A stretch of DNA of 35,405 nt from an uncultured Clostridia bacterium. GTDB lineage: Bacteria > Bacillota > Clostridia > Christensenellales > Borkfalkiaceae. Below are positions 20,343 through 25,940 of the stretch, piece after piece (position 1 is the stretch's first letter; each line of letters opens with the position of its first letter). The notes beneath the pieces are model-generated. The model made no database searches and was not told the origin of the DNA. It saw only the letters and a program-made list of their open reading frames with translations. A program made the position numbers and the translations under genes. The stretch is from the NCBI GenBank assembly GCA_947625595.1, contig CANQOX010000008.1, positions 1 through 35,405 on the forward strand, given 5' to 3'.

Positions 20343-21394
20343 CGGTTTCCGACGAAAAACTCAACGAGCTCATCGAAAACTTATCCGAAAGCTATCGCAT
20401 GAAGGGGAGCATCTCCACGAACCAGCTCTGCAACGAGCTGGAGAAATTCGATCTTTCCCCTCAACAATACGATCAGATCTACAAGGCGCTTCCCGAACTG
20501 GGCATCAGCATCTATGACGAGGACGAACGGGACAAGGAGCTCATGGATCAGGCCCTCTCCGACATCGGCCTCGACGACCCCGTCAAGATGTATCTGAAGG
20601 AGATCGGGCGGGTGCCTCTTCTCTCGGGAGAGGAGGAGATCGAACTTGCGAGGCGCATGCAGGAGGGGGACGAGGCGGCCAAAAACCGTCTCTCCGAGGC
20701 CAATTTGAGGCTCGTCGTCTCCATTGCGAAGAGATACGTCGGCAGGGGAATGCTCTTCCTCGACCTCATTCAGGAGGGAAACCTCGGCCTCATGAAGGCG
20801 GTGGAGAAATTTGACTATCAGAAGGGGTTCAAGTTCTCCACCTATGCGACGTGGTGGATCAGGCAGTCCATCACGAGAGCCATTGCCGATCAGGCGAGGA
20901 CGATCAGGATCCCCGTCCATATGGTCGAGACCATCAATAAGCTCACCCGCGTCTCCCGCGAGCTGTTACAGCAGAACGGAAGGGAGCCCACGCCCGAGGA
21001 GATCGCCGCCGCGATGGGTATTGACGTCGATAAGGTCATGGAGATCCAGAAGATCGCACAGGACCCCGTCTCCTTGGAGACGCCCATCGGCGAAGAGGAG
21101 GATTCCCACCTCGGCGACTTCATCGAAGATGACAAGACGCAGACCCCCGGGGACAGCGTCGCCTCCATCATGCTCAAAGAACAGCTCTTGAGCGTTCTCG
21201 ACTCTTTGACCCCCCGCGAGGAGAAGGTGCTTCGTCTCCGCTACGGCATCGACGACGGCAAGCCCCGCACGCTCGAGGAAGTCGGCAAAGAATTCAACGT
21301 CACGAGGGAGCGGATCCGTCAGATCGAGGCAAAGGCCCTCCGCAAGCTCCGCCACCCCTCGAGGAGCAAGAAACTCAAGGATTTCCTCGACTGA
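20339..21394 (+). CDS. rpoD: Primary sigma factor SigA/RpoD
   Basis: The housekeeping sigma factor, 351 residues. Region 1.1 is short (about 1-75), region 1.2 begins [17 protein letters not shown], region 2 holds [19 protein letters not shown] and the -10-recognition stretch [17 protein letters not shown], and region 4 ends with [26 protein letters not shown], the -35-binding helix-turn-helix. AGGAGGT lies about 5 bases before the ATG at 20339, the strongest Shine-Dalgarno in this operon, which fits high expression. The start overlaps the dnaG stop by four bases, and its own stop overlaps trmK. Confidence 0.98.
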
Positions 21395-22059
21395 TGGACA
21401 GGATCGCAAAGATCTGTTCCCTGCTTTCGGAAACGGAGACCTTCGCCGACGTCGGTTGCGACCACGGCTATATGGCAGAATATATGCTGAAAAATTGCCT
21501 CTGCCGCACGGCTTACATCACCGACATTAGTGAGAAGTGTCTCAAAAAAGCGGAGACCTTGCTCGACGGATACATTCGGGCGGGCAAGTGCATTCCCGTC
21601 GTCTGCGACGGCCTTGCGGGCGTGCCGAAGGACTGCGGCTTCGTCCTCATCGCGGGAATGGGAGGGGAGGAGATCGTCAGGATCCTCTCCGAGAGTTTTC
21701 TCCCCAAAAAGTTCCTCTTTCAGCCCATGAAAAATTCCGAAAAGCTCCGCCGCTATCTCGCCGCCCGCGGCGCGAAGTTGGAGCGTGACTTTACTTTTTC
21801 GGACGGAACGGCCTTCTATGACGTCATTTCGGGACAGTCGGAAGGGGGTGGGGCGTACACCGAGGAGGAGTTTTTCTTCGGAAGGGAAAATCTGCGCTCG
21901 CCCTCGGCCGATTTCATAGAGAAGTGGGAGAGTGAAGCCGCCAAGCTTCGCTCCTATCTTGAGAGGGACAACATGGCGGCACCGCACCGCGAGGATCTCA
22001 CCTCCCGCCTCACCCGCATCGAAACGCTCTTGGATAAAATCCGCCTTTCCGTATTTTAA
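21394..22059 (+). CDS. trmK: tRNA (adenine(22)-N1)-methyltransferase TrmK
   Basis: Methylates A22 of tRNAs with SAM. The 221-residue protein has the SAM-binding motif FADVGCDHGYMAEYM (17-31), a TDIS strand end (43-46), CDGL at 71-74 and the family-specific IAGMGGEEIVRIL (86-98). The ATG shares a base with the rpoD stop (TGATG). In many Bacillota trmK is followed directly by the nif3-like gene yqfO; here those two genes are separated by about 3.1 kb of accessory DNA. Confidence 0.94.
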   Translation: MDRIAKICSLLSETETFADVGCDHGYMAEYMLKNCLCRTAYITDISEKCLKKAETLLDGYIRAGKCIPVVCDGLAGVPKDCGFVLIAGMGGEEIVRILSESFLPKKFLFQPMKNSEKLRRYLAARGAKLERDFTFSDGTAFYDVISGQSEGGGAYTEEEFFFGRENLRSPSADFIEKWESEAAKLRSYLERDNMAAPHREDLTSRLTRIETLLDKIRLSVF

Positions 22060-22500
22060 TTAAAAATTGAAAATTGAGGCGGGGGATTAGAATGCTCTCG
22101 CTGTCCCTCTCATTTACCCCCTCCATGGGAGGGGGGGTAGGGGGTGGGTCACCGCATTCTCGCTGCCCCTCATAGGGGAAGTCCCCCGTAGGGGGAAAGG
22201 GGTTTTAATTCTAATCACACGTCACCCTGAGCTTGTCGAAGGGTCACCGCAGCAAGAATAAGGTGATGGTTCGACTTCGCTCACCATGACACAATCAGAA
22301 CAAACCCCTCTGTCTCGGCTACGCCTCGACATCTCCCCTAAAAGGGGCGACAAGAGTAAACTGCTCATTCTGCCCCGCCCGCACGTTCTTTATGGCGTCG
22401 AAGGGCGGCACGAGCAGCATAGCCGCGAAGTAGGCCCCAGAGGGGCTGAAGGATTCCCTGAACGAAGTTATCCACTTCATCTCATTTCAAAAATTTCTTG
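22060..22500. repeat. Repeat island upstream of the TIR-LRR gene
   Basis: About 440 bases with no credible gene, made of small palindromes: CCCCCTCC/GGAGGGGG (22117-22135), CCCCT-CAT-AGGGG and TCCCCC/GGGGGA near 22166-22196, CACCCT...AGGGT near 22223-22243, GGTGA...TCACC near 22262-22285, and CCCCT/AGGGG near 22336-22347. The 22 bases at 22312-22333 match 10923-10944 in inverted orientation. A 74-codon open frame here (22286-22510) has no homologous look and no Shine-Dalgarno and was not called. Confidence 0.75.
22111..22156 (+). repeat. Direct repeat A, copy 1 (left flank of TIR gene)
   Basis: This segment, from CATTTACCCCCTCC through GGGTCACCGCAT, recurs in the same orientation at 24979-25025; the two differ only in the lengths of two G runs (7 and 5 here, 6 and 6 there). 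It contains a perfect 8-bp stem CCCCCTCC/GGAGGGGG with loop ATG. A third, more diverged copy is at 35309-35345. Confidence 0.85.
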
Positions 22501-22520
22501 GAAAAATTAGTACCATACTA

Positions 22521-22549
22521 TTGACAGATGTAAATCATGCTGTTATAAT
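22521..22549 (+). promoter_or_regulatory. Consensus sigma-A promoter of the TIR-LRR gene
   Basis: TTGACA (22521-22526) and TATAAT (22544-22549) are both perfect and separated by 17 bases, with TGT before the -10 giving an extended -10 element. Transcription should begin near 22556, leaving an untranslated leader of about 54 bases. The leader ends in AAAGGAGGA (about 22592-22600), a strong Shine-Dalgarno 10 bases before the ATG. Confidence 0.9.
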
Positions 22550-22609
22550 TGTAGCACAATCATTATAAAGGGACTATATCCCGATCAAAACAAAGGAGGA
22601 AACATTCTC

Positions 22610-24892
22610 ATGTTTCAATGTAAGAATTGTGGGCGCAACCTTGACGCAGAATTGGAAAATGCGCGGAACGGCGTTGTGATCTGTCCCGCCTGCATGAGCC
22701 GTTGGCCCGTTCCTGCGGCGGCGACGCCGACGGAAGCCAAGATCCTTCTCAGCCAAGGGGAATTGTTCCTCGACACCTGTCACTTCGACGAGGCAAAGAC
22801 GGCGTACGAGAAGGCGGCAAAACTTGCTCCCGAGGAAGCCGAGGCGTACTTTGGCATGGCTCTTGCCGCTTTTAAGGTACAATATCTGAAAGATGAGGAG
22901 AAAAAACGTCTCCAACCGATCTGTTATAAGTTCACCCAAAGCGTTTTCTCCGAGGATAAAAATTATTTGAGAGCCTTGGAACTTGCGTCGGAGGAGAAAA
23001 AGAAGGTTTATCAGACAAAGGCGCGGGAGATCGACGCAATCAGGGAAGAATTCTGCCGCTTGAAGCAAGAGGGAGTCAATTACGACTGTTTCCTCTGCGT
23101 CAAGGTCGGTGACAATCATGGCGGAAACACGCAGGATAATACCGATGCATCGAACCTCAATTCCTACTTAACGACGAGAGGTTATCACACTTTCTACTCG
23201 GAAGTGGATGCACGCGGTCGAGTGGGTGAGGAGTATGAGGCCATCATTCTCTACGCACTCTACACTTCGAAGTGTATGCTGGTTATTTGCTCGAATAAAG
23301 CATATCTTGAGACCGATTGGATGAAGAATGAGTACATGCGGTTTGCAAAAATGATCGCAGACGAAGATAAGGAGCGCGATGCGATCGCGATCGTGTTCCG
23401 AGGCGAGGTCATTGAACATTTACCTGGAAGGGAGGGAAAACTACAGGGAGTAGATCTTGCCCGCCCTGACGCATATGCCTTGATTGAGGAGTATATAAAG
23501 AAGCATACGTCGGGGGGCAAGGGACCGATTGGAGCAAAACTGTATTTCTGTCCAAAATGTGGGACGCCGAATGATGAAACGGAGAAAAAATGCACCGAGT
23601 GCGGGACCTCCGCTGCCTATTTCATCACGCGCGAGGAATTCCAGAGGCGCGAAGCCGAACGGAAAGCGGCCGAGGCCGAGCGGAAAGAGAAGGAGCGCAT
23701 CGACGAGGAAAAGCGGAAAGCCGAAGCAAGGGCGAAAGCCGAGGCAGAAGCAAGAGCAAGGGCAAGAGCTGAGGCCGAAGCAAAGGCAAGAGCCGAGGAA
23801 GAAGCAAGAGTAAAGGCGAAAGCCGAGGCCGAGCGGAAGAAGCGGGAAGAGATAATAGTAAAGCCGTGGCTTGCGCCCGACTATCCTACGCTTGAAAATT
23901 ATGATAGAGATAAATTTGAAATAGAAGGCACATCGCTGATAAAATATAATGGATATGAATCAATTGTAGAAATTCCCAAGGGTGTGACATCGATTGGAAA
24001 CTGTGCGTTCATGGATTGCACTTCGCTTACGAGCATCACAATTCCCGACAGCGTGGCCTCAATTGAAGAGTATGCGTTTTGGGGCTGCATCGCGCTTGAA
24101 AGCATTACCATTCCAGACGGCGTGAAGGAAATAGAGGAGGGCGTGTTTTGTGATTGCCGTTCGCTTCCGAGCATTACCATTCCCGACAGCGTGAAATCGA
24201 TTGGACAGTGGGCGTTTAGTAATTGCAGTTCGCTTGAAAGTATTGAGATTCCAAACCGAACGAGGTCGATGAGGACGATTGAGTGGTATGCGTTTTCGGG
24301 TTGCAGTTCGCTTCCGAGCATTACCATTCCCGACAGCGTGACCTCGATTGGAAAATCTGCGTTCGAGGGTTGTAGAAAATTAATCATTTATTGCAAAAGA
24401 AGCGACAAGCCCCAAGGATGGCATGAGGAATGGAATCCCGATGATTGCCCCGTAATATGGGGTTATAACAATTCGGCACGCACATTCAAATCCGCGTCTG
24501 ATGAAAAAGATGAGACCGTGAGGAGGACAGAAGAGGAGCGCAAAAAGCAAGAGGAGATAAAAACAAAGCCGTGGCTTGCGCCCGACTATCCCACGCTCAA
24601 GGCTTACGATAAAACCGTGTTTGAGATTAAAGGGACAACGCTGATAAAATATAAGGGAAAAGGTTCAACTGCAGAAATTCCCAAGGGCGTGACCTCGATC
24701 GGAGATTGGGCGTTTTGGGATTGCATTTCGCTTACGAGCATTACCATTCCCGACAGTGTGACCTCGATCGTAGGGTCGGTGTTCTATACTTGCAGATTGC
24801 TGAAAGATGTAACGATGCCAAAGGGATTCAAGAATTATATAGAGAAAATATTCGGTAGCAACTACAAAACAATAACATTTACATTCATTTGA
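22610..24892 (+). CDS. Zinc ribbon-TIR-leucine-rich repeat protein, putative intracellular NADase/sensor
   Basis: This 760-residue multidomain protein has a CxxC...CxxC zinc ribbon (C4, C7, C25, C28), TPR-like helices (about 42-135), and a TIR domain (about 157-298) starting YDCFLCV and holding SKCMLVICSNKAYLETDWMKNEY. W237 and E241 match the WxxxE position whose glutamate is catalytic in NAD-cleaving TIRs. A second ribbon (C314, C317, C328, C331) follows, then a long A/E/R/K charged helix (340-414) and BspA-type LRR_5 repeats (about 436-590). A near-copy of the linker and first LRR comes at 651-738. There is no signal peptide, membrane segment or P-loop, so it should be cytoplasmic. Similar zinc ribbon-TPR-TIR N-termini occur with varied C-termini in gut Bacillota; function is unproven. 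DNA is visibly more AT-rich than its neighbours. Confidence 0.87.
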   Translation: MFQCKNCGRNLDAELENARNGVVICPACMSRWPVPAAATPTEAKILLSQGELFLDTCHFDEAKTAYEKAAKLAPEEAEAYFGMALAAFKVQYLKDEEKKRLQPICYKFTQSVFSEDKNYLRALELASEEKKKVYQTKAREIDAIREEFCRLKQEGVNYDCFLCVKVGDNHGGNTQDNTDASNLNSYLTTRGYHTFYSEVDARGRVGEEYEAIILYALYTSKCMLVICSNKAYLETDWMKNEYMRFAKMIADEDKERDAIAIVFRGEVIEHLPGREGKLQGVDLARPDAYALIEEYIKKHTSGGKGPIGAKLYFCPKCGTPNDETEKKCTECGTSAAYFITREEFQRREAERKAAEAERKEKERIDEEKRKAEARAKAEAEARARARAEAEAKARAEEEARVKAKAEAERKKREEIIVKPWLAPDYPTLENYDRDKFEIEGTSLIKYNGYESIVEIPKGVTSIGNCAFMDCTSLTSITIPDSVASIEEYAFWGCIALESITIPDGVKEIEEGVFCDCRSLPSITIPDSVKSIGQWAFSNCSSLESIEIPNRTRSMRTIEWYAFSGCSSLPSITIPDSVTSIGKSAFEGCRKLIIYCKRSDKPQGWHEEWNPDDCPVIWGYNNSARTFKSASDEKDETVRRTEEERKKQEEIKTKPWLAPDYPTLKAYDKTVFEIKGTTLIKYKGKGSTAEIPKGVTSIGDWAFWDCISLTSITIPDSVTSIVGSVFYTCRLLKDVTMPKGFKNYIEKIFGSNYKTITFTFI
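23861..23886 (+). repeat. Internal duplication in TIR-LRR gene, module 1
   Basis: The 26 bases encoding KPWLAPDYP are identical to 24566-24591. The similarity continues at protein level for about 55 residues: KPWLAPDYPTL, then FEI.GT.LIKY, then EIPKGVTSIG..AF, in residues 416-467 and 651-702. This indicates a duplication of the linker plus the first leucine-rich repeat. Confidence 0.85.
24161..24194 (+). repeat. LRR-encoding DNA repeat, exact 34-base copy
   Basis: The 34 bases encoding SLPSITIPDSV are identical to 24308-24341, 147 bases downstream. A further copy at 24728-24761 differs at two positions, and two more diverged copies lie near 24026 and 24094. Such close identity at DNA level suggests recent repeat expansion or gene conversion inside the gene. 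Confidence 0.85.
24308..24341 (+). repeat. LRR-encoding DNA repeat, second exact copy
   Basis: Identical to 24161-24194. Recombination between the two would remove 147 bases, exactly 49 codons, keeping the reading frame, so LRR number could change without breaking the gene. Confidence 0.85.
24566..24591 (+). repeat. Internal duplication in TIR-LRR gene, module 2
   Basis: Second copy of the exact 26-base match at 23861-23886. Before it lies a short charged helix (RRTEEERKKQEEIKT), so the duplicated unit repeats the order charged helix, linker, LRR. In this copy the LRR block is short: about two repeats before the protein ends. Confidence 0.85.
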
Positions 24893-24915
24893 TCGTTTGG
24901 GGAAGAGGGGAGCGT

Positions 24916-24962
24916 TGCCCACCTCAGTCGCCTGCGGCGACAGCTCCTCCTCGGGAGGAGCC
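24916..24962 (+). repeat. Hairpin repeat B, copy 1
   Basis: A 47-base unit that recurs at 35356-35402 with four differences. It forms two hairpins: GTCGCC/GGCGAC and CTCCTCC/GGAGGAG. Compared with the other copy, two of the four changes form a compensatory pair in the first stem (G-C here, A-T there), and the other two lie in the loops. Confidence 0.85.
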
Positions 24963-24978
24963 TCCTCGCTACCCCTTT

Positions 24979-25025
24979 CATTTACCCCCTCCATGGGAGG
25001 GGGGTAGGGGGGTGGGTCACCGCAT
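24979..25025 (+). repeat. Direct repeat A, copy 2 (right flank of TIR gene)
   Basis: Same orientation and nearly the same sequence as 22111-22156; stem CCCCCTCC (24985-24992) with GGAGGGGG (24996-25003), loop ATG. The two copies bracket the promoter and the whole TIR-LRR gene, about 2.87 kb apart. Confidence 0.85.
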
Positions 25026-25169: not shown

Positions 25170-25940
25170 ATGCAAATCAGAGAAATTTATGCTATGATAG
25201 ATGAGACGGCGCCGTTTGTGCTGTCTAAAGAGTACATGCAGTTGGGCATGCACGACAACAGCGGTCTGCTCCTCGACTGCGGGAGAGAGACCGCGGGAGT
25301 ACTCTTTGCGCTCGATCTCACGGTCGAGGCCGTCGCCGAGGCGAAAAAGAGGGGCTTTCATCTCATCGTGACCCATCACCCCGCCATTTGGGACGGCGTC
25401 ATGCGCATCACGCCCGAGGAGACGCCCGCGCTCTTTGACTGCGTGAAGGAGGGCATTTCGGTCATCTCCGCGCATCTCAATCTTGACGCGGCGGACGGGG
25501 GCATCGACGAGAGCCTGATGCTCGGTCTTGGCGGGAAGAAGCCGCTTGCCGTCATGGAGAAGCTCTCCTGTGGCGGCTATGGCAGGGTGTACGACGTGGA
25601 GCCGTGCACGCTGTCCGCATTTGCCGCCCGCGCGGGGAAGGAATTCCGCACCGACAAACTTGTCGTCTACGGCGAAAGGGAAGTCAGGCGCGTCGCAAGT
25701 TTCTGCGGCGGGGGATTTTCGGGCCAAGCCATAACATTTGCACTCGAGAACGGCGCGGACACCCTCGTCACCTCGGACGGAAAGCATCACATCGTCCTCG
25801 ACGCCGTGGAGAGGGGGCTCAATGTCCTTCTCTTCACCCATTACGCCTCCGAGATCTACGGGTTCACCCGCTTTGCGGAAACGATAAAAAATAAAATCGG
25901 GCTGCCCTGCGCCGTCTTTACGGACAGGCGGTTCCTGTAA
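25170..25940 (+). CDS. Nif3-like dinuclear metal centre protein (YqfO family)
   Basis: A 256-residue member of the NIF3/DUF34 family, proposed metal-binding hydrolases whose substrate is not settled. Expected metal ligands are visible: H69-H70 in VTHHPAIW, H102 and D106 in AHLNLDAA, and near the C-terminus THYASE, with His and Glu. It lacks the central PII-like insert of longer YqfO proteins, so it is the short form. AAAAAGGA lies about 11 bases before the ATG. In related genomes this gene follows trmK directly; here the TIR insert and repeats lie between. Confidence 0.9.
   Translation: MQIREIYAMIDETAPFVLSKEYMQLGMHDNSGLLLDCGRETAGVLFALDLTVEAVAEAKKRGFHLIVTHHPAIWDGVMRITPEETPALFDCVKEGISVISAHLNLDAADGGIDESLMLGLGGKKPLAVMEKLSCGGYGRVYDVEPCTLSAFAARAGKEFRTDKLVVYGEREVRRVASFCGGGFSGQAITFALENGADTLVTSDGKHHIVLDAVERGLNVLLFTHYASEIYGFTRFAETIKNKIGLPCAVFTDRRFL

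Follow-up and report, generated by a model that had tools for sequence, protein, structure and literature searches.

A TIR-LRR gene of an uncultured Clostridia bacterium: a probable stand-alone member of a receptor-like family whose front is constant and whose back varies

Introduction

TIR effectors are common in bacterial defence systems, and some TIRs act as adaptors. Described systems with which a bacterial protein joining a TIR domain to leucine-rich repeats (LRRs) can be compared include the plant TIR-NB-LRR receptors (RUN1, RPV1), Thoeris (ThsB/ThsA), Toll-like receptors and the BspA-type LRR surface proteins. Here, we analyzed such a gene, a single open reading frame (ORF) of 760 codons at 22610..24892 on the forward strand of a 35,405-nucleotide stretch (hereafter the window; positions 1-35,405 of contig CANQOX010000008.1, forward strand, assembly GCA_947625595.1) from an uncultured Clostridia bacterium (Borkfalkiaceae). 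Judging from its sequence and those of its relatives, we suggest, with a probability of roughly 0.55, that the encoded protein belongs, as a stand-alone copy, to a receptor-like family in which a constant front is followed by a variable back.

Like the plant TIR-NB-LRR receptors, the protein carries an aligned W-x3-E glutamate and a C-terminal LRR, shows no export signal and is represented by several copies in some genomes. Unlike them, it has no NB-ARC, NACHT or P-loop switch between TIR and LRR, its LRRs are of the BspA type, and a zinc ribbon and TPR-like helices precede the TIR domain. A bacterial TIR domain and a possible nucleotide signal would be shared with Thoeris, whereas no PADLOC Thoeris model was obtained for the protein (E <= 1) or in a scan of 95 out of 283 near neighbours (1e-8). 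The LRR_5 repeats (196 bits) are a feature of BspA-type surface proteins, from which the protein differs by the lack of an export signal and the presence of a TIR domain, and, in contrast to Toll-like receptors, there is no membrane-spanning helix between LRR and TIR (maximum hydropathy 1.44). With the gut-bacterial TIR NADases (PMC9092222) the protein has in common a TIR_2-type domain and an origin from gut bacteria, but the zinc ribbon-TPR-TIR-LRR architecture is not described in the accessible text of that study.

Genes found beside some family members also recall the PspA-band-7-AAA operons, which, in the accessible part of PMC11237479, unite SPFH/band-7 with a zinc ribbon, an AAA ATPase and a coiled-coil protein in one operon; PspA, however, was not detected in the 8 genomes searched here. 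The 'Tir' mentioned in the same portion of that paper is the CesT/Tir chaperone and not a TIR domain. In the open-licence literature, we found no description of a zinc ribbon-TPR-TIR-LRR family or of its link to an SPFH/AAA/trypsin operon, and the family is not described in the accessible portions of PMC7159879, PMC7075850, PMC11237479, PMC9092222 and PMC13142454.

Results

Domain architecture of the TIR-LRR protein

The ORF starts with ATG (ORF list, Pfam) and encodes, all on the forward strand, an N-terminal zinc ribbon (residues 2-28 with Cys 4, 7, 25 and 28; 22613..22693; Pfam, alignment), TPR-like helices (approximately residues 43-89; 22736..22876; Pfam, profile A1), a TIR domain (approximately residues 157-290; 23078..23479; Pfam, structure-sequence alignment) with the predicted catalytic motif W237-x3-E241 (23318..23332; alignments), a second zinc ribbon (residues 313-333; 23546..23608; Pfam) and a charged helix of about 74 residues (345-418; 23642..23863; sequence). 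The C-terminal part comprises a first linker-LRR cassette (approximately residues 411-600; 23840..24409; Pfam, sequence) and a second one together with the C-terminal end (approximately residues 646-760; 24545..24889; sequence).

LRR_5 (196 bits, E 2.3e-58, cut-off 27.7) and TIR_2 at residues 174-286 (35 bits, cut-off 28) scored above their Pfam cut-offs. With the single sequence as query, the second zinc ribbon remained just below (24.4 bits, cut-off 25), and the TPR (20.7 bits, cut-off 32.7) and the N-terminal zinc ribbon (18.9 bits, cut-off 29) clearly below. The latter two assignments nevertheless find support in the family profile A1, whose best matches of solved structure were designed consensus TPR proteins, and in a conservation of at least 90% for Cys 4, 7, 25 and 28 among 29 aligned members. 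Within the 760 residues, the P-loop motif GxxxxGK[ST] is absent and no NTPase family matched at E <= 1 (Pfam), no obvious membrane segment was found (highest 19-residue Kyte-Doolittle mean 1.44), and no signal peptide was seen by eye, the protein starting with the zinc ribbon and without a hydrophobic segment.

The unit formed by charged helix, KPWLAPDYPTL linker and LRR is duplicated, with linkers at residues 418 and 653, and the two units are 68% identical in amino acids and 76% in nucleotides over 82 residues. Among TIR-linked LRR units the greatest variation was observed at positions 15, 16 and 19 (entropy); as the units used for comparison number 32 and come from one genome, selection is not claimed. 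The LRR_5 proteins L005, L007 and L013 of the genome of the window carry lipoprotein-type signals and are a possible source of LRR modules.

A first-pass annotation, made from the sequence alone, had already given the order of zinc ribbon, TPR, TIR, zinc ribbon, charged helix and LRR, which is borne out by Pfam, the family profile and the cysteine conservation. It had placed W237/E241 correctly at the WxxxE position, as seen in the 29-member alignment, had noted a charged helix of about 75 residues, and had reported no signal peptide, membrane segment or P-loop, in agreement with our searches. Its BspA-type LRRs are present, but the duplication of the helix/LRR cassette had been overlooked.

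An NADase-type glutamate in the TIR domain

A TIR-only profile built from 29 members was searched against the sequences of solved structures (E <= 10) and returned three matches, all plant TIR-NB-LRR proteins, namely RUN1 6o0w (1.1e-5), RPV1 and RUN1 7s2z. W237-x3-E241 aligns on the plant W-x3-E motif, in which 7s2z has Ala in place of the glutamate. In RUN1, the glutamate at this position is the catalytic residue (E100). Across 98 family ORFs, three of which do not cover the position, a glutamate was present in 94 of 95 including our own, the exception being Val (nearest-W method), and neither W237 nor E241 varies among the 29 aligned members, the most distant of which show 28% identity. The NADase-type glutamate suggested by the first-pass annotation is thereby supported, and the TIR domain is predicted to cleave NAD+.

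Distribution of the family and variety of its C-termini

In a profile scan of genome contigs, 340 stretches were found to encode a relative, of which the best 80 (78 loci) were used. Among these best-scoring loci, 76 of 78 are titled metagenome-assembled genome (MAG), mostly of rabbit-gut Clostridia, and two derive from Pumilibacter muris CLA-AA-M08. The genome of the window holds two further front-half copies (47% and 39% identity), and front-half profile matches occur in 21 of 61 genomes of the genus (E <= 1e-3), three of which have 9, 10 and 11 matches, fragments counted. At the level of the order, the family is present in 44 of 248 genomes (E <= 1e-10). Together with the 340 stretches, this supports the first-pass annotation, which had ascribed the zinc ribbon-TPR-TIR front to gut Bacillota: the front is real and widespread.

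Family ORFs were collected from the window together with loci L051-L087 and L127-L204; the 123 obtained (E <= 1e-10) were reduced to 98 by dropping those with identical last 200 residues, and the C-terminal regions of 94 of these were scanned with Pfam. LRR_5 was detected in 58 of the 94; further domains, in groups that overlap, were TPR_14 (7), Sel1 (5), the ribosomal L7/L12 C-terminal domain (4), peptidase M23 (2), Fer4 (1) and a methyltransferase domain (1). By a crude hydropathy measure, 37 of 94 have at least two membrane segments. The second zinc ribbon is not general, since the corresponding CxxC..CxxC pair occurs at the same place in 11 of the 92 family ORFs reaching it.

Single loci illustrate further arrangements. 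By eye, the C-terminus of the family member L070 12646-15387 seemingly combines a 4Fe-4S ferredoxin-type domain with LRRs, L7/L12 C-terminal-like stretches follow the TIR domain in the members L078 2-988 and L081 5608-9132, and in L087 5551-7035 the TIR domain is apparently fused to a methyltransferase domain in a single ORF. L082 7375-8907 encodes 510 amino acids with apparently two TIR domains, the second of which is matched by the family profile. Directly 3' of a TIR-LRR member, L133 8004-8747 is a short zinc ribbon and LRR-like ORF with a similar C-terminal motif, possibly a remnant or a regulator.

A constant front joined to a variable back

A full front is available for 85 members, and in 44 pairs of these the fronts are at least 75% identical. 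Pairs from the same genome combine similar fronts with dissimilar backs: 97% and 34% amino acid identity in L053/L054, 95% and 40% in L060/L061, and 89% and 52% in L148/L149. A tandem pair on one contig, in L155, gives 98% and 52%. In the same-genome pairs high nucleotide identity is limited to approximately residues 20-370, the backs are mostly below 65%, and the upstream DNA shows no clear similarity (30-41% identity).

The copy G000:C1 in the genome of the window and its syntenic counterpart G010:C50 in the sister genome are about 99% identical in nucleotides over the front, with a dS of 0-0.08 per 75-codon block, and 61-89% identical over the back, with a dS of 0.39-0.71; the background dS between G000 and G010 is 0.19-0.32 (rpoD, trmK, nif3). 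Downstream, identity amounts to 90-97% over the next 1.5 kb and to 68-91% farther on. In this pair, the front has recently been exchanged or homogenised, while the back has diverged. In C33, the other further copy of the genome of the window, the C-terminal membrane part is the most divergent stretch (65-78%, compared with 87-93% just downstream and 73-94% upstream).

Taken together, these results show that the joining of a conserved zinc ribbon-TPR-TIR front to changing backs is a trait of the family, as observed nearly wholly in MAGs. The sensor-effector layout proposed in the first-pass annotation is supported by this pattern, because it constitutes independent evidence.

A probable partner operon beside some family members

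We surveyed 90 loci, comprising 775 neighbour ORFs picked by length. Recurrent neighbours were an SPFH/Band_7 protein with zinc ribbons (family B), a small protein (D), two coiled-coil proteins (G and C), an AAA protein (A) and a trypsin-like protease (E), the latter with a zinc-ribbon-like start in L185; other recurrent clusters were LRR proteins and housekeeping genes. Partner domains were read in L169 and L185. At least three of the six partner families stand beside a member in 11 of 90 loci, which correspond to 10 distinct operons, because L157 and L169 cover overlapping parts of a single contig. In the genome of the window, a related set (C, a C-AAA fusion, AAA, protease, SPFH, AAA) is located on contig C3 (L215 8745-18138).

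With the coiled-coil protein C as a marker, 9 of 61 genus genomes were positive and all 9 contain the family, which also occurs in 12 of the 52 others. In the order, the family is present in 17 of 25 marker-positive and 27 of 223 marker-negative genomes (Fisher p = 3.5e-9), a comparison made at unequal thresholds (1e-10 and 1e-5) and in which the genome of the window and some others searched also supplied profile rows. The co-occurrence spans 8 taxonomic families, and in 10 of the 17 genomes marker and family member are no more than 5 kb apart. The first-pass annotation had envisaged a one-protein system; this view is incomplete, because the gene is part of a multi-gene operon at some loci.

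Regarding the identity of the partners, Snf7 matches were obtained for 8 of 18 members of coiled-coil protein C at E <= 1 (best 3.3e-4), the Snf7 cut-off was passed in 0 of 14 genomes, and 9 of 14 control genomes gave matches as well. An ESCRT structure was not found among the matches of this protein, an MIT domain was not supported in the AAA partner, whose lid above cut-off is AAA_lid_6 (Pfam), and a search of 8 genomes for PspA gave no match. We therefore do not call the operon an ESCRT system: an ESCRT-III identity of the coiled-coil partner is left weak, and an MIT/Vps4 identity of the AAA partner was rejected as unsupported. PspA was set aside as undetected in those 8 genomes. A further sub-cut-off Snf7-like match lies at G025:C1:78670-79044, in a genus genome with two family members and no match of marker C.

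Defence, phage and mobile context

Random samples of neighbours, with operon partners left out, were scanned with PADLOC (1e-8; 95 of 283 near and 95 of 299 farther neighbours). The Pfam families of the near sample are mainly housekeeping (25 of 111 families listed; no search was aimed at mobile genes). None of the 116 pattern stretches in viral contigs was confirmed as a relative, and phage records searched with the front half yielded no relative either. In plasmids, all 15 records listed (of 28) match the protein only from residue 418 onwards, in the linker and LRR region.

Several assignments were rejected. Thoeris or another catalogued defence system is at odds with a best PADLOC match of E 0.033 for the 760-residue protein and with the lack of an excess in the sampled neighbours. 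Cargo of a phage or plasmid does not fit the absence of a viral or phage relative and the restriction of the listed plasmid matches to the linker and LRR part. As to the MoxR-vWA conflict systems, TIR domains occur there, but the accessible text of PMC7159879 contains no TIR-LRR architecture.

Genomic insertion and surroundings of the gene

The TIR-LRR gene is flanked by trmK (21394..22059) on the left and a NIF3/DUF34 gene (25170..25940) on the right, both on the forward strand and assigned by Pfam and synteny; rpoD (Pfam) and a primase-like gene (by eye) lie upstream of trmK, and NIF3 is present in 56 of 61 genus genomes. In a comparison of loci from 30 genomes of the genus, including the one analyzed here, trmK and nif3 adjoin without a TIR-LRR gene in 29 of 29 other genomes. 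The alignment of the sister genome G010 (NIF3 97% identical) with the window runs at about 90% as far as 22075 and resumes at 24916; in place of the 2,840 bp at 22076..24915, G010 has 113 bp (genome alignment). By parsimony, the TIR-LRR gene appears to be a genome-specific insertion. A dispersed short repeat, with 42 matches in the same genome, flanks it upstream (22097..22158) and downstream (24965..25025; alignment, genome search) and may have offered a route for recombination. No transposase or integrase was found among the six window proteins scanned with Pfam.

The G+C content of the gene is low (0.488 versus 0.592). A G+C content lower by more than 0.04 was seen in 22 of 79 family members tested; low G+C is no family trait and is therefore not used as proof of recent transfer.

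Upstream of the gene, a sigma-70-type promoter-like site, TTGACA-17-TATAAT, occupies 22521..22549 on the forward strand and agrees with 12/12 consensus positions at a 17-bp spacer. The region contains 7 such sites of any quality against 3.3 expected, and sites scoring 11-12/12 were found in 15 of 85 family members as opposed to 1 of 85 shuffled sequences. AAAGGAGG is located at 22592-22599. A palindrome noticed by eye, GGGACTATATCCC at 22571-22583, lies just 3' of the expected transcription start and is possibly an operator or 5' hairpin.

Discussion

Our data are consistent with a model in which the LRR cassettes would bind a ligand or sense the state of the cell, binding would cluster the proteins via their TPR and helix parts, and the clustered TIR domains would cleave NAD+, resulting in its depletion or in a cyclic ADP-ribose-type signal. 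The family would work together with a machine that is associated with the membrane and comprises SPFH, coiled-coil, AAA and trypsin-like proteins. This part of the model has genomic support, the genes concerned lying beside some members and, in the genome of the window, on another contig. Candidate triggers include phage, envelope damage or others. A more far-reaching idea, which we put forward tentatively, is that of a receptor repertoire, in which gene conversion or repeated duplication would keep the TIR module near-uniform within each genome, and recognition modules that are exchanged and duplicated internally would be joined to it at scattered sites, the resulting receptors all sharing the SPFH/coiled-coil/AAA/protease helper. 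Such a repertoire would resemble plant TIR-NB-LRR receptors in having sensors with shared helpers, here without an NTPase switch.

A number of observations weigh against the reading as a receptor-like family with partners. The gene stands alone in the window, without an operon, no family member is present on contig C3, which carries the operon in the same genome, and the sister genome G010 has two family members and no detected marker. Across the order, the family is missing from 8 of 25 marker-positive genomes and the marker from 27 of 44 family-positive ones, and the co-occurrence statistic ignores phylogeny. A front of 99% identity is absent from the comparison of C33 with G010:C13 (blocks 77-95%). 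Since lipoprotein-type signals begin 3 of the 9 LRR ORFs listed from the genome of the window, the LRR might have been recruited as a generic module. In the samples of 95 neighbours each, PADLOC families numbered 9 near members and 13 farther away, i.e. there is no excess near them. With respect to the enzymatic prediction, the accessible text of PMC9092222 shows NAD+ cleavage, with ADPR or cyclic variants as products, for several gut-bacterial TIR_2-type domains, and its Table 1 gives no TIR active in the assay for many gut strains; in that of PMC7075850, a TIR survey, the frequency of the glutamate is not necessarily tied to reported activity. In view of these two sources, as far as accessible, a glutamate at this site gives no guarantee of NADase activity.

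The protein might instead be a self-sufficient anti-phage abortive-infection receptor, whose LRR detects a phage product and whose TIR empties the NAD+ pool without partners. A single-gene insertion with its own promoter-like site, the TIR glutamate, the patchy presence in 21 of 61 genus genomes and the frequent use of TIR effectors in defence systems would all agree with this, but the near sample shows no PADLOC excess, the protein's own best PADLOC match is at E 0.033, phage records and viral contigs gave no match, and the operon link suggests partners, and we regard it as rather unlikely. Anti-phage defence as such, proposed in the first-pass annotation, is accordingly not supported so far; neighbourhoods without defence or mobile genes had been named there as an argument against it, and what we found is some PADLOC matches near members, without an excess in the samples. 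No better placed in our estimate is a sensor of envelope or cell stress that signals or reports to the SPFH/AAA/trypsin machine, with a phage-shock-like logic. Such a sensor would account for partners of the SPFH (Band_7_1), AAA, trypsin-like and coiled-coil types, for the Snf7 matches in 8 of 18 coiled-coil members at E <= 1 (best 3.3e-4) and for the at least two membrane segments in 37 of 94 C-termini (crude hydropathy), and published PspA operons unite band-7, zinc ribbon and AAA genes (accessible part of PMC11237479); yet the Snf7 signal is weak (0 of 14 above cut-off, 9 of 14 controls matching), no ESCRT structure was found, MIT was not supported and no PspA was found in 8 genomes. Despite the lack of a defence-gene excess, the receptor-like family may still have a function in immunity or stress, given the operon link and its receptor-like evolution.

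That the TIR domain is a non-enzymatic scaffold serving assembly alone, as adaptor TIRs do and as the additional TPR-like and zinc-ribbon parts of the module would allow, is improbable given W237 and E241 in 29 of 29 aligned members and a glutamate in 94 of 95 ORFs. Finally, with 76 of 78 loci titled MAG and assemblers prone to err at near-identical segments, the pattern of constant front and variable back could in principle have arisen from errors of assembly or binning in genomes derived from metagenomes. We consider this very improbable, as the pattern recurs in several assemblies, the L155 pair stands in tandem on one contig, and in G000:C1 and G010 the gene order corresponds and identity returns to 90-97% downstream.

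Under the reading as a receptor-like family, the interest of this locus probably lies in the family itself, with its constant effector module, changing sensor modules and putative membrane-side partner machine. If this holds true, gut Clostridia would possess sets of intracellular TIR receptors in which the sensor half diversifies while the effector half remains constant, as is known above all from the immunity of plants and animals. The family would then point to a partner machine at the membrane, and would offer a simple bacterial model for the origin of receptor repertoires and for how LRR binding may switch on a TIR domain without an NTPase.

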